Shown here piece after piece: positions 25,836 through 34,699 of a stretch of DNA of 39,435 bases. This DNA comes from Phycisphaera sp. TMED9 (GTDB lineage: Bacteria; Planctomycetota; Phycisphaerae; Phycisphaerales; SM1A02). Within the stretch, counting starts at the first letter, position 1. Every line of letters starts with the position of its first letter. The stretch is taken from the NCBI GenBank assembly GCA_002167845.2, contig NHBO02000015.1:1-39435 (forward strand), given 5' to 3'. Both the position numbers and the translations under genes were made by a program. The notes beneath the pieces were generated by a model, which ran no database searches, was not told the origin of the DNA, and saw only the letters and a program-made list of their open reading frames with translations.

Positions 25836-26885
25836 TCAGGCGGTCCAATCTCCGAAGAGAAGACCGAGATCAGCGCCATTGACCAGACCATCTTCGTTGA
25901 TGTCTTCCGGGCATCCCTCGCACACCCCCCAGGCGCCGATCAACAGCCCCAGGTCGGCGCCATTCACGACGCCGTCGTGATTGAAGTCGGCCGGGCTATA
26001 GGCCGTCTCCGCGAAAGCGACGAGCAGCATCGAGAGCTCAAGATCCGACGCGAACGTCTCGACCGTGCCGTCCAGCAACAGATCGGCCAGTTCGTCACCG
26101 GGCGGAAGGGTCGGAAGCGAAAGCGGAATCTGTTCGAAGGGCGGGAAGTCGACCGGCTGTTCTCCGGACACCGAGAGGTCGCTCGCCATCTCAAGGCGAC
26201 TCTCCTCGCCCCCGATGATCAACTCGCCTGCAATGGGCAGGAGGACGGGGAGCTCGAAGGGCTGAGGGCCGGTCCCGAAGTCCCCTTCCATGGTCAGGGT
26301 TCCGGGGAGACCACCGGTGAAGGTGAATCCATCGCGGCTCTCGATCACGTCGATCACCGTCGGCCCCACGGAAGAGAGCACCATCTGCGTGATCGTCCCC
26401 TCCTGCAATGGAATCGGAATCTCGAATCCACCGGGATAGAGCGAGAACGGGCTGAAGGTTCTGAAGGTCTGGTAGATCATCACCAGATCGACCGAGACCG
26501 TCGTGCTCCCGCCTGCGAGAACGTCGATCTGAAAAGCATCGACCGTGAAAGAACCGTCCTGGAGCGACGACAAGTCGGCGTCCACGGATCCTGAAGGTTG
26601 AAACTGCCCCGCTCCCGCCACGAGTTCAAAGTTGGCCGTGTAGTCGATGGGGTTGTTCCCACTCCCGCCGAACAAGCCGGGCCGGGTCTGCGTTCCCTCT
26701 GGATTGGTCTTTGCGTCGTAGTCGCCGATCAGCGTTCCCGCGAAGGGTATCGAGATCGAGAAGGCCTGCTGGTAGGAGCTCTCCTTCGACTCGATGACGA
26801 AATCATCGGCGGCCGCCGATCCCGCGATCGGCATCGACAAGGCGAGAAACAAAGACGAACGAACGGTCGTGGTGGTGAGAGGCAT
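25836..26885 (-). CDS. Secreted protein with two C-terminal dockerin-like repeats
   Basis: A 349-residue exported protein. The leader is MPLTTTTVRSSLFLALSMPI with cleavage near AGSAAADD. Residues 30-290 form an all-beta region with no recognisable enzyme motif. It includes AGTLIGDYDAKTNPEGTQTR, SGSVDADLSSLQDG and FTVDAFQIDVLAG, which line up with the neighbouring gene at 26950 (GVFIGDFDPQANPFGTETRP, TGSIDADWD, INTFDIELGV), so the two are tandem paralogues. Residues 300-349 contain two calcium-loop helices, DFNHDGVVNGADLGLLIGAW and DINEDGLVNGADLGLLFGDW, of the planctomycete dockerin-like type. No cohesin is visible nearby. The role may be surface or matrix attachment; that is inference. Confidence 0.82.
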   Translation of the reverse strand: MPLTTTTVRSSLFLALSMPIAGSAAADDFVIESKESSYQQAFSISIPFAGTLIGDYDAKTNPEGTQTRPGLFGGSGNNPIDYTANFELVAGAGQFQPSGSVDADLSSLQDGSFTVDAFQIDVLAGGSTTVSVDLVMIYQTFRTFSPFSLYPGGFEIPIPLQEGTITQMVLSSVGPTVIDVIESRDGFTFTGGLPGTLTMEGDFGTGPQPFELPVLLPIAGELIIGGEESRLEMASDLSVSGEQPVDFPPFEQIPLSLPTLPPGDELADLLLDGTVETFASDLELSMLLVAFAETAYSPADFNHDGVVNGADLGLLIGAWGVCEGCPEDINEDGLVNGADLGLLFGDWTA

Positions 26886-26949
26886 TTATTTCTCCGTCGA
26901 CATTGTGGACAATCCCGCCATGAATACAACCGAATACTGAGATGATGGC

Positions 26950-28002
26950 TCAGTCGTCCTGATCCGACGACCACGCAACCAGCAACCTGGCCAGATCTCC
27001 CGACCCGATGATGCCATTTCGATCGAGGTCGGCGACATTGCGTCCGGTATTGCCCCACTCGAGCAGAAGGATGCCGAGATCGATGGCGTCCACGCGACCA
27101 TTGCCGTCAAGGTCCGGATCCGGAAGTGGGCCCATGACCGAGGCGATCCCCAGATCGACGAAGAGCTCGAATTCTGGAGGGCGACTGGTTCCAGAAAACA
27201 CGAGCGCCGCGTCCTCTTCTGCTTCTGATGTCTCGACGAAGAACGGCAAGGTCGAGATCGGAGAGAACACCGTTCCCGCACCTTCTCCCACGGATGAGAA
27301 GAAGCCGAGTTCAAGCCGAGGTCCCTGATCGAGGTACAGGACTCCATTGGTCGGAAGAGCGACCAGCGCCGTCCGCTCCACGACCCCACCCGCCGTCTGG
27401 ATCTTGAAGTGCAGCATCCCCTCAACGTTCGCGAAGATCACCCAGATATCCTCGGTGATACGAAGAAGATCCGCCGGATTCGGCCCCTCGGACTGAAAGC
27501 GCATCTGAAGAAGATCCGCATCGTCGAGCAGAACCGATTCGGGGATCCCATCCGGGAATCGCCACTCGGGGCGAACGGTCACGAAAGGTGAGGAGACCCC
27601 GTCGATCGACTGCTCGAAGGGGACCGACGCAAGCCCACTCACGCCGAGCTCGATGTCGAAGGTGTTGATCACCATCGAAGCCGTGGGAAGGTCCCAGTCC
27701 GCATCGATCGATCCGGTGGGTCGAAGATCGTCCCAGGATCCACTCAGCAGGAGTGATCCGAACGTCGGAATCGGAATGTTTCCTCGCGTGGCCGAGGTTG
27801 GTCGAGTCTCGGTGCCGAAGGGATTGGCCTGCGGATCGAAGTCGCCGATGAAGACGCCTTCGATCGGAACGTCGACTCCCAATTCTCCCCGGAAGAAACT
27901 GGACCCGGGAAGCAGCAGGAACTCTTCGGCGCACACCGGAGCGCCCGAGACTGCGACGACCGGGAACATCAACGCGAGATGGAGACGGAATTCGAGGAGC
28001 AT
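26950..28002 (-). CDS. Secreted protein with two degenerate dockerin-like repeats, paralogue of its neighbour
   Basis: A 350-residue exported protein with a leader MLLEFRLHLALMFPVVAVSG and cleavage near APVCAEEF. The beta-rich middle shares the motif G-x-x-I-G-D-[YF]-D-x-x-x-N-P-x-G-T-x-T-R-P with the gene at 25836, plus the later S-[IV]-D-A-D block, which indicates an old tandem duplication. The C-terminus (295-350) has two loops, DLDGNGRVDAIDLGILLLEW and DLDRNGIIGSGDLARLLVAW, less regular than those of its neighbours. An internal Met (residue 12) could start a shorter leader; no strong ribosome site is seen for either. It lies 64 bases upstream of the gene at 25836 on the same strand. The function is unknown. 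Confidence 0.8.
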   Translation of the reverse strand: MLLEFRLHLALMFPVVAVSGAPVCAEEFLLLPGSSFFRGELGVDVPIEGVFIGDFDPQANPFGTETRPTSATRGNIPIPTFGSLLLSGSWDDLRPTGSIDADWDLPTASMVINTFDIELGVSGLASVPFEQSIDGVSSPFVTVRPEWRFPDGIPESVLLDDADLLQMRFQSEGPNPADLLRITEDIWVIFANVEGMLHFKIQTAGGVVERTALVALPTNGVLYLDQGPRLELGFFSSVGEGAGTVFSPISTLPFFVETSEAEEDAALVFSGTSRPPEFELFVDLGIASVMGPLPDPDLDGNGRVDAIDLGILLLEWGNTGRNVADLDRNGIIGSGDLARLLVAWSSDQDD

Positions 28003-28106
28003 GAATGAGTCAGAGTCGCTGGATGTTGACGGGTCCTGACCGCACCGGCGGTCGCCGGATCTTTTCGAGACGATTCATGGTCTGGGTTCAAGGAATCATC
28101 CTGAAC

Positions 28107-29180
28107 TCAGGGACAGACGCCCCAGCCCACGAAGAGCAGACCCAGATCCTGCCCATCGACGATGCCATCCCCATCGAGGTCCGCCGGGCACGGATCCGGA
28201 CAGACGCCCCAGGCCACGAACAACAGACCCAGATCCTGTCCATCGACGACGCCGTCTCCATTGACGTCCCCGCTGCAGTCAACGGGGTTGCAGTCGAGCT
28301 GAAGGAGGTATTGGAGCCCGTACTCGCGCGGAAGCGGTTCCTCGTCGTCGTCCGGTGGATTTTCAGGGTCGATCTCGTCACAGGGAAGACCGGACCGGAG
28401 CGAACGACCTGAAACGCCGGCTTCGACCACGAGATACCACTGGCCTTGCGGCAACACGAAGGACCAGTCACCCGACGTGCACGGGTCGACGTGGTATTGG
28501 CCGATCGTCCGGATCGGTCCTTCACAGTCACCAGCCACCAGAAGCATCCTCGCGGGAAACTCGGAGGAGAGCGTCGCGGTCCAGCTGCCGTCGGTGGTCG
28601 TCGGAAGTCGAAACCAGTCGACGTCGCGTGGCACCGTCGTGGTGGTCTTTCCGTGAATCCGATCCCCACACTGGATGATCGACGACACCGGCTCAAGGGC
28701 ATCCTGCGAGCAGCCGTCGTTGATTCGTTCGAGACAGGGTTCGTCTTCGAGGATCGCATCGGACGGCGGCTCGATCGGACACTCGATCGTCGAACCGCAC
28801 CATCCCTCGGCTTCCGCGACGCAGATCGAGTCCCATGTTCCGTAGCCGCAGAAGGGATCGTGCAATCGAACGAGTTCACAGCAGGATTCATCAAGACATC
28901 CGGGGGTGTCGTGCACCTCGAGGCACTCCCCCAGATTCGGGCAGTCGATGTCTCCACAGAGTTCGGTCGCCTGTTTCACACAGGTCTCGTCCCAGGAGAC
29001 CTCGCAACAGAACGCATCGTTCTCGCACACGAGTTCACAGCACCCCGGCTGGAGACACCCCGGTTCACCGTGCGGCTCGTCGCATGGTGGAAGTGACGGC
29101 CCGCACTCCTGCTGTGCAGCGGCGCCGAGCGTGATCGAGGCGGTCATCGCGAGGACGATGGAGCGTGGGACCAGACTCAT
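28107..29180 (-). CDS. Secreted Cys-rich repeat protein with two dockerin-like repeats
   Basis: A 357-residue exported protein with a leader MSLVPRSIVLAMTASITLGA. Residues 26-132 hold two copies of a Cys-rich unit of about 43 residues: C-x-x-P-H-G-E-P-G-C-L then CCELVCENDAFCCEVSWDET-C, and H-D-T-P-G-C-L then CCELVRLHDPFCGYGTWDSI-C, each with W-D-x-x-C-V-x-x-A. The cysteines probably pair as disulfides. A beta domain follows (DRIHGKTTTTVPRDVDWFRL, WTATLSSEFPARMLLVAGDC), resembling the pre-peptidase C-terminal type of domain. Residues 302-357 end in DVNGDGVVDGQDLGLLFVAW and DLDGDGIVDGQDLGLLFVGW. Its ATG overlaps the stop of the FG-GAP gene (ATGA, 29177-29180), so the two are probably translated together. 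The function is unknown. Confidence 0.82.
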   Translation of the reverse strand: MSLVPRSIVLAMTASITLGAAAQQECGPSLPPCDEPHGEPGCLQPGCCELVCENDAFCCEVSWDETCVKQATELCGDIDCPNLGECLEVHDTPGCLDESCCELVRLHDPFCGYGTWDSICVAEAEGWCGSTIECPIEPPSDAILEDEPCLERINDGCSQDALEPVSSIIQCGDRIHGKTTTTVPRDVDWFRLPTTTDGSWTATLSSEFPARMLLVAGDCEGPIRTIGQYHVDPCTSGDWSFVLPQGQWYLVVEAGVSGRSLRSGLPCDEIDPENPPDDDEEPLPREYGLQYLLQLDCNPVDCSGDVNGDGVVDGQDLGLLFVAWGVCPDPCPADLDGDGIVDGQDLGLLFVGWGVCP

Positions 29181-30637
29181 CGTCGTCGACTCTCAATCGG
29201 ACCTCGGACGGGCTCGCCACGAGGCGTTTCCCCACTCCGCATTCGTGTGAGAAACAGGGCGATGTCGGCACCACTCACCACGCCATCGCCATCAAGATCC
29301 GCCACTTGGGCCCGATCAACCCCAGGCGAGACCGACGAAACCCGTGAATCGACCGGTGCTGCCACGCGTCCGACGAATCCATCACCACAACCGCTGGCCT
29401 GCGGCGTGAGGTTGGGAAGAACCCAGAGGCTGTTGGACACGAGTTCGACGGCCAGAACGTCTAGATCGCAGTCACCATCAAGATCGGCGACCGCAAGCCC
29501 TCGGAAGAAACTGTCATTGGCGATCTGCTGAGGCGGTTCGAAACGGATCACGCCGTCTCCGCCGGCGGAGATCGGCTCGGTCCGATTGTCGAGCACCATC
29601 ACCGGACCGGGAAGGGCATGCCCGACGATCACGTCCAGATCCTCGTCTCCGTCGAGATCACCCATCGCCGCCGCGTAGGCGTAGCCGAGTCCCGTCGAGG
29701 GAAAGGCGGCATCGCGATCGAATTCGATGGAAGCGGTCGAGCCCTGATTCTCGAAGATGCCGACGTGCGACGACTCGCCGATCAGAATGAGCGGTACGAG
29801 GACGTCTTCGTCGCCATCCTGATCGAGATCGCCGACCGCGAGGTCGGTCATGCCGCCGATCTGGCCATTCACCCGCGAGGGGCGCCAGCCTTCCGCCGGG
29901 TCGAAGGTCGCATCGCCCCGATTGCGACAGATGAAGATCCGACTCGCGCCCGTTGCGACGATCACCAGGTCGCGATCGCCGTCGGCGTCGAAGTCAGCGG
30001 TTCCGATGCTCTGCGGGAACGGGATGCTGACCGATGACCGACTGATCACGAGCGGCGCCGCCGGATCGAATCCGCCTTCGCCGTCATTCAGGAGGATCTC
30101 GATGATCGGAAGCCGGTGGTTCATCGCGGCGATGTCCGGGTCGCCGTCGCCGTCGAGATCGTCGACCACCACCGCCCGAGGTTCGCGACCCAGCGCGATC
30201 TCCTCGAACTCGCCGAAGGTGCCGTCGCCGTTTCCATGAAGGATCGAAAGCCTGCCCCGAAGTGCTCGAACCGCGAAGCAGAGATCGAGGTGACCGTCGC
30301 CGTCGAGATCGACGATCTCCACCCAGTCGGTCTGACCGCCGGTCACCAATTCGATCGGCGTTCCGAGGACGCCATCGTCATTGAGCATCAGATACGCGAA
30401 GCCCTCGCTGTTCCGGCCCGGGACCACCACGTCCACGTCACCATCGCCGTCCACATCACCGACCGCCACCGCGGTCGGCGAGTGCGGCGTCGGCATGGTG
30501 ATGACCTGCGGCGGGCCGAAGAGAAAAGGCCCGTCACCGAAGGCGGTGGAATCACCGAGCATCATCAGACTCGTGGCAAACGCCGAAGCGAGGATGAGGC
30601 GGGAAACCGATCGAATGATCCGACGAACTGGCCGCAC
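29177..30637 (-). CDS. Secreted FG-GAP/VCBS repeat protein with a terminal dockerin-like loop
   Basis: A 486-residue exported protein. The start is a GTG at 30637 preceded by ACGGAG at good spacing; it begins an Arg-rich leader (MRPVRRIIRSVSRLILASAF). The frame's upstream extension to 30835 is not used. Seven calcium-loop repeats make up a likely seven-bladed integrin-type propeller: GDVDGDGDVDVVV, VDLDGDGHLDLCF, DDLDGDGDPDIAA, ADFDADGDRDLVI, GDLDQDGDEDVLV, GDLDGDEDLDVIV and ADLDGDCDLDVLA. One dockerin-like loop (DLDGDGVVSGADIALFLTRM) is near the end, followed by a basic tail. Such proteins usually bind ligands or glycans at the cell surface. Its stop overlaps the start of the Cys-rich gene. 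Confidence 0.88.
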   Translation of the reverse strand: MRPVRRIIRSVSRLILASAFATSLMMLGDSTAFGDGPFLFGPPQVITMPTPHSPTAVAVGDVDGDGDVDVVVPGRNSEGFAYLMLNDDGVLGTPIELVTGGQTDWVEIVDLDGDGHLDLCFAVRALRGRLSILHGNGDGTFGEFEEIALGREPRAVVVDDLDGDGDPDIAAMNHRLPIIEILLNDGEGGFDPAAPLVISRSSVSIPFPQSIGTADFDADGDRDLVIVATGASRIFICRNRGDATFDPAEGWRPSRVNGQIGGMTDLAVGDLDQDGDEDVLVPLILIGESSHVGIFENQGSTASIEFDRDAAFPSTGLGYAYAAAMGDLDGDEDLDVIVGHALPGPVMVLDNRTEPISAGGDGVIRFEPPQQIANDSFFRGLAVADLDGDCDLDVLAVELVSNSLWVLPNLTPQASGCGDGFVGRVAAPVDSRVSSVSPGVDRAQVADLDGDGVVSGADIALFLTRMRSGETPRGEPVRGPIESRRR

Positions 30638-30929
30638 GAAGAACTCCGTCAGGAGACCGAAGAATGGTGCCGGGAATCGACGATCCCGGACCACCGACGA
30701 GAACGATCGAGTGTAGGTCGCCGAGGAGCCCGATCGGCGCGCGATCTTCGGAGCGAGACCGAAATAGGTCGAGCGGATCGGTTTCTGGACGTCTGACGTC
30801 CCGGAACCAACAGGACCGAGGGCGAACAAGCTCACCCCCGCTCATCTCGAGGAATGATTCGTCCCGGATGGCCTCCGAGTTCTCCAAAAACAAGACGCCG
30901 GTTGATTCGGCATCCGAAGCGTGCCCCGA

Positions 30930-33770
30930 TCATCCCTGCCGGGCGATCAGACGCTCCACCGCCTCCAGCCGCTTCGAGTGGCGAGGCTGGTCCGGTTCGA
31001 GAATCACCAGGGCTTCGATGTGACGACGAGCCGATTCGAGATCTCCGATCTCGACGGCGCACGCGGCGGCGAGTTCGCGGTTGGCGGCGTGATACGGGTT
31101 CATTCGAACCGCCCGCTCCGCCGCGGTCTGGGCTTCTTCCTTCTCCCCCGTCTGCCGCGAAAGCCTGGCGATCTCCAGCGCGAAACTGTTGTCCTTCTCA
31201 CTTCGGAGATCGAGTTCCCGAAGGTGCGGGATCGCGCGAGCCGGATCGTCGCCTTCAAGAAGATCGCGAGCCAGCACCCGGTGCGGATACGGATCGACGG
31301 GACGGACTTCCGCGTATCGCTCGAGCATCGTACGGACGTCGTCGCTCACGACCTCGTCGGCACGGAGCGTTCGTCGCAGGGTCAACTCGAGCAGGTCGGG
31401 ATGATCGGGGAACTCGACCAGGAGCTCCCGAAGCGCCTCGTCGTCGATCTCCACCGGAGGCCGTTCGAGCTTCGGCCAACCCTCACCCGTGGTTCGAATC
31501 TGTTCCGGCGACTCACCCGGTCGCAACGGGCGACCGATCTCGCCGGCGATCAACGCCGCGATTCGTTCGAGCCGAAGTCGACGGGCATCTTCGAGTCGCT
31601 CGGCCTGCACCGCGTCACGCATTCGCACCCGATCGGCCAACACGTCGAGCGACGGTTCGGGATCCAGGCCCCAGGCCTTGACCTGCTCCCCCGCCCACGC
31701 CACGAAGTCGCGATGGAAGTCCGCTCTGGAGATTCCCAACGCCCGGGGGATCGCGTCCTTTTCCTGCACGCCGTCGAAGTAGAGCGCGATCAGATCCACG
31801 AGGGCGTCATCGCCCCACCGCTCGTTCATGAACTCGACCATCCAGTCGCCTTGCGCGTAGGCGAAACCCCGGTCACTCGGCCTCTTGGGACGAACGAAGG
31901 CCCAGTTGATCTCGTCAAGATCGAAGAGGTCGTCCTGACGCCACCGCTCGGCCAGTTGCCGAGTGGTCGCGTACTTCCGGGGGACGCCTTCGATGCTCAC
32001 CGCCGCCGCCTCCGTCAACCAGTGCGGGATCCGATTGCGGGTCTGACTCAGGGTGATGGTGTGCGCGTATTCATGCCGCAGGACCTTGAGCCAGTCGAAC
32101 AGGCCGAGGTGCTTCGTCGGCGGACCTTCTCGCGGAACCTCGATCGCGATCAAGGGGCCGGTGCAGGCCGCGATGGTGTGAATCGCAGGCATGCCGGTGA
32201 TGCGAACCGCGAAGAACTGGTGGTCGGGCATCAACTCGATCACCGTCTTCTGATCCGGTTCGTGCTTGAATCGCGCGACGAGGTCGGCGTGCATCGCTTC
32301 AAGCGGGCCGAGCATCCCCTTCGCGACCACCGCATCCTCGCCGGCCCGGTACTTCAGGATGAAGTTCTCGCTCTCCAGCACTTCAAACGACTCGATCTCC
32401 TCGAGGAGAAACTCGCTGAACGCCGCGCGGGTGTTGTAGGGATCGAGCTCCGTCGCGACGTCCAGCGCCACTCGCGCCGCGCCGTCGCGACCGGACTGCA
32501 TCTCCAGGAGGCCCAGCTCGACGTGCGGCGCCGCCCACGCGGGACGGCGACGAATCGCCTCGGCCAATGCCATCGCCGCCTCTTCGTACTGCCGATCGAA
32601 GGAGAGCGCCGAGCCGACTTCGTACCAACCGAAGGGCGACCCCGGCTCGACCTCGTCCAGACGAGACAACCAGTCGGCGCCATCGGTACGGTCGTAGCGA
32701 ACCGCCGCGGTGGCCGCCCGCAATGCGATGGCATCCGGCATTCGCGGGTGCTCGGCGAGCAGGTCGTCGAGAAGGTCGGCCGCAAGATCCGGATCGTTCC
32801 GAGTGAGTGCGCTGCGAGCTCTGATGAGCGTGGCGAGCGGATGGCTCGACGCGAAGCCGGGAGCGTCCGGAGAAAGAAGCGCGGCGAGTCGATCCAAGGT
32901 CGCCGCCGCCCGCTCCGCGGAGTCGAAGTCGAATCCACGAATCGCGAGCAGGCCGAGTTCGAACCACGCCTCCGCTCGACGAGGGTCCAGCGCCAGCGTC
33001 TCGTGGAGGGCCGGAACTCCTTCGCTCGCGTTCGCGCGTTCGATCAGAAGGCGTCCCTCCAGCAGGCGGGGCGCCGCGTCCAGTCGATCAATCGACGTGC
33101 GGACCTCGCCAAGGTCGTCCAGCATCGTCTGGAAGTCATCAGGTCGTCCACCACCCGCCTGAAGGCGGATCCGCATCGCATCGATGCCCGCAAGACGGCC
33201 CGCCAGACTGGGAGGCGACTCCGATTTCGCCGCGGCGATCGCCGCGGAAGCGGTTTCGAGGGCTTCTTCCCGGCGACCGAGCGACTGCAACAGCGCGGCC
33301 CGGAGTTCGAGCGCGACGGCGGTCGTCTGTTCTTCGATCGGCAGACCGTCGAGCAGTTCCAGCCCTTCGACCGAACGCCCGAGCCGGCGCATCGCCTCGG
33401 CTCGGTCGGTGGTCGACGCCGCAGGATCATCCGCGACCAGATCCCAGCGGGCGATGATCATCGCGGCGGCGGCCTTGCTCGCGGGCTTCGACTGGAGGTC
33501 TTCCGACCCCCAGGTCCCGTGCCGAAGCCGCATGTCCGATCGTTCTTCCGGCGTGAGCCACTCGGCCTTCATGGCCTCGACCAGCAAGGGCGACGGCGCG
33601 ACGGCTCGCGGAACGAGCTCCCTGGCTTCCTGGCGAGCGACGGCGTCCTCGGCGCCGCTCGTCCAGATCGTCACGGCAAGAAGCGATCCGAAGACGATCC
33701 GACTGACGCGTGATCTCCTCGGCGGAAGATCTGGCCACCGGCCTTGAGATGAGCGGTTCGCCGAAGTCAC
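30930..33770 (-). CDS. Exported TPR protein with a gluzincin (HEXXH) protease domain
   Basis: A 946-residue protein. The GTG at 33770 overlaps the previous stop (GTGA) and has GGAGGA upstream. A positively charged region precedes the hydrophobic stretch IVFGSLLAVTIWTSG, so it is exported. TPR-like helical repeats lie at about 100-450 (for example AEAWFELGLLAIRGFDFDSA, APHVELGLLEMQSGRDGAAR) and again at about 830-946. Between them, at about 465-700, is a metallopeptidase-like domain with KVLRHEYAHTITL, HEYAH at 566-570, and a downstream Glu (E587) in IPHWLTEAAAVS. HEXXH followed by a Glu ligand defines the gluzincins; the layout is like DUF1570-type proteins. The substrate is unknown. The frame's longer start at 33821 would lie inside the upstream gene. 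Confidence 0.85.
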   Translation of the reverse strand: MTSANRSSQGRWPDLPPRRSRVSRIVFGSLLAVTIWTSGAEDAVARQEARELVPRAVAPSPLLVEAMKAEWLTPEERSDMRLRHGTWGSEDLQSKPASKAAAAMIIARWDLVADDPAASTTDRAEAMRRLGRSVEGLELLDGLPIEEQTTAVALELRAALLQSLGRREEALETASAAIAAAKSESPPSLAGRLAGIDAMRIRLQAGGGRPDDFQTMLDDLGEVRTSIDRLDAAPRLLEGRLLIERANASEGVPALHETLALDPRRAEAWFELGLLAIRGFDFDSAERAAATLDRLAALLSPDAPGFASSHPLATLIRARSALTRNDPDLAADLLDDLLAEHPRMPDAIALRAATAAVRYDRTDGADWLSRLDEVEPGSPFGWYEVGSALSFDRQYEEAAMALAEAIRRRPAWAAPHVELGLLEMQSGRDGAARVALDVATELDPYNTRAAFSEFLLEEIESFEVLESENFILKYRAGEDAVVAKGMLGPLEAMHADLVARFKHEPDQKTVIELMPDHQFFAVRITGMPAIHTIAACTGPLIAIEVPREGPPTKHLGLFDWLKVLRHEYAHTITLSQTRNRIPHWLTEAAAVSIEGVPRKYATTRQLAERWRQDDLFDLDEINWAFVRPKRPSDRGFAYAQGDWMVEFMNERWGDDALVDLIALYFDGVQEKDAIPRALGISRADFHRDFVAWAGEQVKAWGLDPEPSLDVLADRVRMRDAVQAERLEDARRLRLERIAALIAGEIGRPLRPGESPEQIRTTGEGWPKLERPPVEIDDEALRELLVEFPDHPDLLELTLRRTLRADEVVSDDVRTMLERYAEVRPVDPYPHRVLARDLLEGDDPARAIPHLRELDLRSEKDNSFALEIARLSRQTGEKEEAQTAAERAVRMNPYHAANRELAAACAVEIGDLESARRHIEALVILEPDQPRHSKRLEAVERLIARQG

Positions 33771-34699
33771 TTGGATTCGATCCTCCAGGCTTTCGGATCG
33801 ACATCCGGTGCGTTCAACCATCGGCGGCCTTCCTCATCGACACCCGCGTTGATGGAAGGGTCGAAGAATCTGACCGACGTTCGATCCCCGTCCCGCTCGT
33901 GGATTTCGACCGCGACCGGAAGGTGAGTCCCCTTCCGAACCCAGAGATCGATGCCGATGATCTTTCGAGCGTCCGCCATTTCGGTACCGGGCCGAGGCAC
34001 CAGATGGAGCCCCACGACGCCCTCGGCATCCTTGAGCACTCGAGGCGGAATCGGCGGCGCCGTGGTCACGTCGAAGTACTTGAGAATGTCTTCTTTTCGC
34101 TGGCCGATCGGAAGTGGAATCGGCCCCTCCCCCAGACGAAGCGGATCGCGCCGGGCGTCCGGGTCGACCACGCGGCGGCGCACGAGTCGCTTCGCCTCGT
34201 GGTCGTAGTCGCTGAGCACGCCATCGACCAGAACGAAGTGCTCCAACCGTTCGCGAGCTCGACCGCTCGGTTCGATCGACCGTTCGAAGACGATCGCCGC
34301 CCGACGATGCTGAGTCTTCTCCGAATCCGTTTCCGCCGGCGGAGGCATCACGAGATAGACGCGGCCGAAACGCTTTTCGGTCTCATCCGCCAGATCGTCA
34401 TAGGAGTCCATTCGAACCCGCGAAGAAAAGTCCTCGAGCGAGGCGCTCTGCGCATCGATGGCGTCAAGCAGCGTCATGACGGCCGGGTCGCTCGGCGGGT
34501 CGGCCTGCTCGGGACCACTCGAGACGGCGCCGGCCGCGATTCGAACCGCCAACGGACTCTCCGCGGGTGTGCAGCACGGTGGGAGCGACTCGGAACCCAC
34601 CGCATCGTCATCGACCTGATTCGCCGCCTGATGGGCGAATGCCGACCCCGTTGCAAAGGACAGTACGAAGACGAGATTGGCGGCTTGGCGAAGAACCAA
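33767..34699 (-). CDS. Exported LolA-like protein
   Basis: A 310-residue protein. The start is taken as the TTG at 34699, preceded by GGGAG seven bases upstream, because it begins the leader MVLRQAANLVFVLSFATGSA-FAHQ. The longer frame to 34918 has a non-natural lead-in. After a short Cys-containing linker (ESLPPCCTPAE) the mature part resembles an outer-membrane lipoprotein carrier half-barrel: LEDFSSRVRMDSYDDLADET, GRVYLVMPPP, YDHEAKRLVRRRVVDPDARR, then IPLPIGQRKEDILKYFDVTT, and GIDLWVRKGTHLPVAVEIHE. This is the order seen in LolA and related exported proteins. It overlaps the TPR-protease gene by four bases, so the two proteins probably act together. The fold call is moderate and the function unknown. 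Confidence 0.75.
   Translation of the reverse strand: MVLRQAANLVFVLSFATGSAFAHQAANQVDDDAVGSESLPPCCTPAESPLAVRIAAGAVSSGPEQADPPSDPAVMTLLDAIDAQSASLEDFSSRVRMDSYDDLADETEKRFGRVYLVMPPPAETDSEKTQHRRAAIVFERSIEPSGRARERLEHFVLVDGVLSDYDHEAKRLVRRRVVDPDARRDPLRLGEGPIPLPIGQRKEDILKYFDVTTAPPIPPRVLKDAEGVVGLHLVPRPGTEMADARKIIGIDLWVRKGTHLPVAVEIHERDGDRTSVRFFDPSINAGVDEEGRRWLNAPDVDPKAWRIESK

Follow-up and report, generated by a model that had tools for sequence, protein, structure and literature searches.

The window, by which we mean the whole 39,435-nucleotide stretch of Phycisphaera sp. TMED9 DNA analysed here, carries six consecutive genes on the minus strand at 25836-34699, as confirmed from the open reading frames. 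The genes and their main features are:

33767..34699, minus strand: LolA-fold exported protein, 310 aa, its stop running into the start codon of the following gene (GTGA); AlphaFold, Foldseek and locus comparison
30930..33770, minus strand: TPR, Peptidase_MA_2-like (HEXXH, gluzincin), TPR protein; Pfam, alignment A4 and presence in relatives
32010..32075, minus strand: catalytic stretch of this protease, HEYAHT...WLTE; invariant columns of alignment A4
29177..30835, minus strand: FG-GAP/VCBS repeat protein with 7 matched stretches, a probable beta-propeller; Pfam FG-GAP_3, E = 2e-42
29249..29302, minus strand: lone dockerin-like half-loop close to the FG-GAP protein's C-terminus; sequence and a weak profile match
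28107..29180, minus strand: Cys-rich protein with two Cys repeats, a PPC-like region (by eye) and a paired tail; alignment A6
28110..28271, minus strand: paired dockerin-like tail of the Cys-rich protein; A3 profile, E = 3.7e-23
26950..28002, minus strand: dock2, a divergent duplicate of the beta-protein with a paired tail; BLASTP to dock1 and distribution
25836..26885, minus strand: dock1, a long-stranded beta-protein ending in a paired tail and serving as the orthologue for the tag-swap comparison; A5 family and model
25839..25994, minus strand: paired dockerin-like tail of dock1; A3 profile (E = 6.4e-23), Pfam Dockerin_1 and model

Two junctions carry the 4-base overlaps that the first-pass annotation had reported (GTGA at 33767-33770, LolA-like/TPR; ATGA at 29177-29180, FG-GAP/Cys-rich). 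N-terminal signal-like segments, judged by eye, are present in six of six products, in agreement with its view that all are exported. The internal duplication that it described is also real: dock1 and dock2 share 26% identity across 346 aa (BLASTP E = 6e-26), the mark of an old event, and dock2 is restricted to part of its own genus. Of the four calcium-loop C-termini that had been claimed, three are full paired tails (dock1, dock2 and the Cys-rich protein), while the FG-GAP protein has one half-loop, which is followed by a basic stretch and is absent from most of its relatives. Scanning for promoters and terminators yielded 0 promoter-like sites and terminators at chance level.

The LolA-like assignment was borne out by fold, without sequence-profile support. 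Foldseek searches of the PDB with an AlphaFold model of the first protein (pLDDT 84) returned LolA and RseB as top matches, the best being P. aeruginosa LolA (E = 5e-12, TM 0.75 on the target); the Pfam LolA profile (PF03548) did not match the window protein and hit a single one of 30 homologues (E = 0.03). Judged by the model, the protein has a LolA fold. The second gene, with a GTG start at 33770 (an alternative upstream ATG at 33821 is possible), encodes an HEXXH protease between TPRs, as had been proposed. Pfam TPRs accompany a Peptidase_MA_2 match (29.4 bits, cut-off 32.4, E = 8.6e-7), and H583, E584, H587 and E604, counted from the ATG at 33821, are invariant in 18 aligned homologues (alignment A4); both the HEXXH motif and the downstream Glu of a gluzincin are conserved. 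This protease occurs in 54 of 61 related genomes and, across the phylum, in 129 of 199 sampled genomes. Its pairing with the LolA-like gene is conserved order-wide: at 81 of 96 loci the protease gene is immediately preceded, on the same strand, by the LolA-like gene (at 7 of the remaining 15, the contig extends less than 2 kb in that direction), the gene overlap is kept in 36 of 68 cases among relatives, and the two are fused in one 1260-aa frame in L076/L156. From the fold and domain make-up, the pair most likely provides periplasmic handling or quality control for hydrophobic or exported clients. It represents an uncharacterised planctomycete system that is widely conserved.

The FG-GAP and Cys-rich genes are tightly joined. 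Where they are separate and adjacent, they share an NTGA overlap in 21 of 21 cases; they are fused at L050, L074, L100, L142, L150 and L155, and also, away from the protease, at L176 and L177. Because the two genes always overlap or fuse where they are paired at the locus, their products would seem to behave as two parts of one assembly. Pfam has no match for the Cys repeats of the window's Cys-rich protein. Its family (A6) reaches up to 44 paralogous matches per genome in family f1 and is almost absent from the order's other families, which points to a lineage-specific repeat expansion. The third cassette protein, dock1, is modelled with long strands (pLDDT 84.7) and with tail helices at residues 309-317 and 337-345. 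Foldseek found no convincing match in the PDB for the dock body, with TM under 0.3 among the best-ranked matches. The body (A5 family) is nearly single-copy; among 400 genomes from the order, 213 encode it.

The first-pass annotation had suggested synteny across Phycisphaerae as a check. We scored neighbourhoods with HMMs from 40 genomes and 80 named contigs, and found that many genera retain the order ribBA, lolA, TPR protease, cassette, dehydratase, thiC. At about 27 loci, a few of which end at contig edges, the FG-GAP, Cys-rich and dock genes follow the protease, either in that order or as dock, FG-GAP, Cys-rich. At six other loci (L105, L106, L108, L109, L116 and L117), the flanks are unchanged and the dehydratase gene comes straight after that of the protease. 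In relatives, then, the cassette is variously reordered, fused or absent as a unit, and therefore conserved synteny holds. Since order, unit content, co-reordering, fusions and overlaps are all conserved, the scattering of genes that the first-pass annotation had named as counter-evidence is not what we see, and by its arrangement the six-gene block is more than a chance run. Order, fusions and overlaps together give strong evidence for coupling within each unit (LolA-like protein and protease; cassette) and weaker evidence for coupling between them. The coherent module proposed earlier thus survives as a conserved block that did not arise by chance, made up of two separable units, and not as one six-gene machine. 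A further locus, L174 (genome G020), has no protease gene in this place: FG-GAP, Cys-rich and dock come immediately after the LolA-like gene, and the cassette thus survives without the protease. Could the conserved order simply be neighbourhood inertia, a stable chromosomal region holding genes of unrelated function? The flanking housekeeping genes ribBA and thiC and the dehydratase gene are conserved there too, and several genomes have the dock gene at another place, as such a reading would have it. However, the LolA-like and protease genes remain together even where the flanking genes are gone, the FG-GAP and Cys-rich genes fuse or invariably overlap, and the cassette is reordered yet together, or missing whole. 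We therefore regard inertia as an unlikely explanation.

The paired tails reach far beyond this locus. The A3 profile detects at least 110 of them in the window's own genome; on this profile evidence, the tails are genome-wide and not particular to the block, and we rejected the idea that they mark this operon. Paired calcium loops with ligands at positions 1, 3, 5 and 12 are present in a 22-tail alignment and its position table. Against Pfam Dockerin_1 (PF00404, cut-off 22.9), dock1 scores 24.0 bits, over the cut-off, and dock2 (19.0) and the Cys-rich protein (15.4) fall below it; against the GC-type dockerin model NF041540 (cut-off 29), dock1 scores 15.5, and dock2 and the Cys-rich protein have no match. 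Elsewhere in the window, a GDSL lipase/acylhydrolase (PF13472; 37948-39435, plus strand), which runs off the right edge, ends in a dockerin-like loop, ADLNRDGVVDGADFG. In relatives from the same genus, a tailed ORF lies about 5.6 kb away from the protease gene, on the other strand. At L236-L239, several calcium ligands of the dock tails are lost (e.g. ADLAEPLGALDFSDV), with the tail position and final G-C-P kept; the shape of the tag is retained there, its calcium perhaps not.

The first-pass annotation suggested that the loops act as sorting or attachment tags. New support for this comes from a tag swap on dock orthologues and from the likeness of tails within a genome. We built a tree of 113 dock bodies and read their C-termini in the available loci. 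Dockerin-like pairs of a lineage-specific type end 109 of the bodies (two of these are truncated by contig ends): mostly the A-W-G type in family f1 and the F-x-x-A-F...G-C-P type in family f2, where one dock orthologue (L162) passes NF041540 (39.7 vs. 29). Three bodies end instead in a PEP-CTERM-like signal, two in family f4 (L163, L164) and one in an f2 genome (L264), and one body (L161) has neither type of end. L163, with the end VPAPGAAGLLLLGLGGVAGRRRRR, exceeds the NCBIfam PEP_CTERM cut-off (TIGR02595, 18.3 vs. 16); L164 scores 13.9, below that cut-off of 16, and L264 is below curated cut-offs, with no TIGR02595 match listed. The three form one clade (support 93) nested within dockerin-tailed relatives and amount to one replacement event in the 113-body sample, affecting one body family in three genomes of two families. 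A search for further swaps among all available loci found them in the dock family only.

Exosortase is encoded in 60 of 61 genomes, and PEP-CTERM counts run from 35 to 115 in most f5 and f6 genomes and from 0 to 11 in f1. The window's own genome has few PEP-CTERM matches (7, all weak) despite two exosortases (PF09721; C10:19250-20074 and C90:4125-4916). The exceptional L161 comes from a single-contig f1 genome (G016) in which the A3 profile matches one tail, where other f1 genomes have at least 46; its dock orthologue has no tail and carries another type of C-terminal domain. This genome would represent a natural loss of the tag system, useful for a gene-by-gene comparison in search of the receptor.

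Within a genome, the tails of unrelated proteins resemble each other. At the 23 loci with both proteins, the likeness of Cys-protein and dock tails was 0.516 in the same genome and 0.433 across genomes (p = 1e-4); after dereplication (n = 12), the values were 0.534 and 0.434 (p = 5e-5). Orthologous tails compared across genomes reached 0.462 and 0.480, below the same-genome value for unrelated proteins. As a control, the Cys repeats of the same proteins showed no same-genome effect (p = 0.31). Position by position, we compared 21 tails of the window's own genome with 34 of G023, both sets selected as best profile matches; the biggest shifts were at positions 14, 10, 18 and 15, and the calcium ligands at 1, 3, 5 and 12 were unshifted. 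Position 14 is G in 30 of 42 own-genome half-loops and in 0 of 68 from G023. In the dock1 model, positions 10, 14 and 18 are predicted to lie on one helix face (helix 309-317). Positions 10, 11, 17, 18 and 22 are the known dockerin recognition positions, and 10 and 18 in our tails coincide with them under the same numbering (PMC6780208). Codon identity at shared residues equalled the pool expectation (0.491 vs. 0.479; 0.444 vs. 0.439), and therefore the likeness is kept at the protein level and does not stem from recent copying; recent gene conversion was rejected on this test. Amino-acid composition was likewise rejected as the source of the code, with body G and N frequencies nearly equal in both genomes.

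These comparisons also bear on whether the tails have a partner at all. They might be partnerless, calcium-stabilised end caps, alike through descent or folding environment, with the PEP-CTERM case a chance domain replacement; the replacement is indeed seen in one clade only, and no partner is known. This account has difficulty with unrelated tails that are more alike within a genome than orthologous tails are between genomes, with control repeats that show no such effect, with a shift confined to one helix face while the calcium ligands stay in place, and with the near-equal body composition. We consider it improbable. The lineage-specific residues could, even so, stem from folding conditions that the tails have in common, and not from a receptor.

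If the tails do dock, the partner might be an ordinary cohesin, too divergent for Pfam or encoded in the missing part of the assembly. Retention of the calcium ligands, with shifts at recognition positions 10 and 18, would suit such a partner, and some freshwater planctomycetes encode cohesin/dockerin sets, for which a cohesin-based 'planctosome' has been proposed (PMC6461901). The first-pass annotation had seen no cohesin, and PF00963 indeed has no match in the window's own genome at E <= 1, on which ground we rejected the cellulosome model; that genome is 94.5% complete, and therefore the absence is not absolute. Against a divergent cohesin, PF00963 exceeds its cut-off in 5 of 61 relatives, and these do not follow the tail counts. 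We consider an ordinary cohesin an unlikely partner.

The protease, in turn, had been cast as the processor of the tails, and this role we reject, because the presence of the protease is decoupled from tail counts across genomes. It is kept in twelve genomes with 0-4 A3-type tails (G016, G037, G039, G042, G043, G045, G046, G047, G048, G051, G055 and G059) and goes undetected in genomes with 21 to at least 109, the upper figures, near 109, being lower bounds; among the latter are G020, G025 and G029 (68-99 tails) and G049 (80). The A3 profile was built from the window's own genome and under-detects the f2 tail type, and therefore the low counts in G037, G042 and G046 mean few own-type tails only. 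A single assembly or sorting module made up of all six genes, in which the TPR-protease cleaves the calcium-loop tails, is accordingly very improbable: the genes are adjacent, co-oriented and partly overlapping in a conserved order, but the protease is phylum-wide, is kept where A3-type tails are few and goes undetected in several tail-rich genomes, one of which (G020) retains the LolA-like gene and the cassette without a protease gene between.

The reading that we favour, with moderate confidence, is that the locus joins a LolA/protease pair to a surface cassette, and that the tails are a genome-wide, non-cellulosomal address tag read by a common receptor. The pair would be ancient and translationally coupled, combining a LolA-fold carrier with a TPR-gluzincin protease; the cassette would supply surface or extracellular proteins (FG-GAP, Cys-rich and long-stranded beta-protein). 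Tailed proteins would be exported by their N-terminal signals, and the calcium-loop tail would then dock such proteins onto a shared receptor at the surface, one that Pfam does not recognise as a cohesin. Most economically, one receptor or one receptor family per genome would read the tag, each lineage's receptor imposing its own residues on the helix face (10, 14 and 18). In one clade, the PEP-CTERM-like signal would do the tag's job instead. More tentatively, Phycisphaerales may possess a second C-terminal sorting or anchoring system, interchangeable with exosortase/PEP-CTERM, in which a calcium tag on about 100 exported proteins coevolves with a common receptor; the code behind this proposal was read in two genomes position by position and at 23 loci. 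A tag replaced by a known sorting signal, together with a coevolving recognition face, turns the role of these dockerins into a testable sorting question. The PEP-CTERM replacement on orthologous bodies hints at the purpose of calcium-loop tails, and the genome-specific residues at 10, 14 and 18 offer a handle for finding the receptor.

Dockerin-like modules outside cellulosomes are widespread, with function unknown (PMC5244752, citing Peer 2009). In the open-access literature, to which our search was directed, dockerin and exosortase occur together in PMC5244752, and we found no paper joining dockerin, PEP-CTERM and planctomycetes. As far as could be checked in that literature, the tag interchange and the genome-specific code are new. 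The kind of tail is known: the NCBIfam name 'GC-type dockerin domain-anchored protein' (NF041540) indicates that curators already suspect anchoring. That family likewise has a paired calcium-loop tail at the C-terminus of exported planctomycete proteins, and f2 orthologues of dock1 can exceed its cut-off, as L162 does. In contrast, the window tails fall below the cut-off, carry an A-W-G motif and have W-G-x-C-P or W-S/T, not G-C, as their final residues.

With the type I dockerins of cellulosomes (PF00404), our tails have in common the tandem calcium-ligand pattern D1-N3-D5-D12, and recognition positions 10 and 18 are among those that vary between genomes here; unlike in cellulosomes, no cohesin was found in the genome, the block proteins are not cellulases, and the tails number 110 or more. 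The 'planctosome' (PMC6461901) likewise places dockerin modules outside cellulose degradation in the same phylum, but that model needs cohesin-bearing scaffolds, none of which PF00963 found here. PEP-CTERM/exosortase (PF07589/TIGR02595, PF09721) also puts a C-terminal tag on many exported proteins, and it replaces the tail on dock orthologues. The PEP-CTERM signal consists of a hydrophobic stretch and a basic end and is read by a membrane enzyme, whereas the tail is a soluble calcium-loop pair with no transmembrane segment. The LolA-fold protein shares the half-barrel of LolA/RseB, but differs from them in having no Pfam LolA match and in forming a pair with a TPR-protease, to which it is fused in one case. 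Finally, BepA-type proteins are periplasmic metalloproteases that combine TPRs with an HEXXH motif; unlike these, the window protease has TPRs on both sides of its Peptidase_MA_2-like domain.
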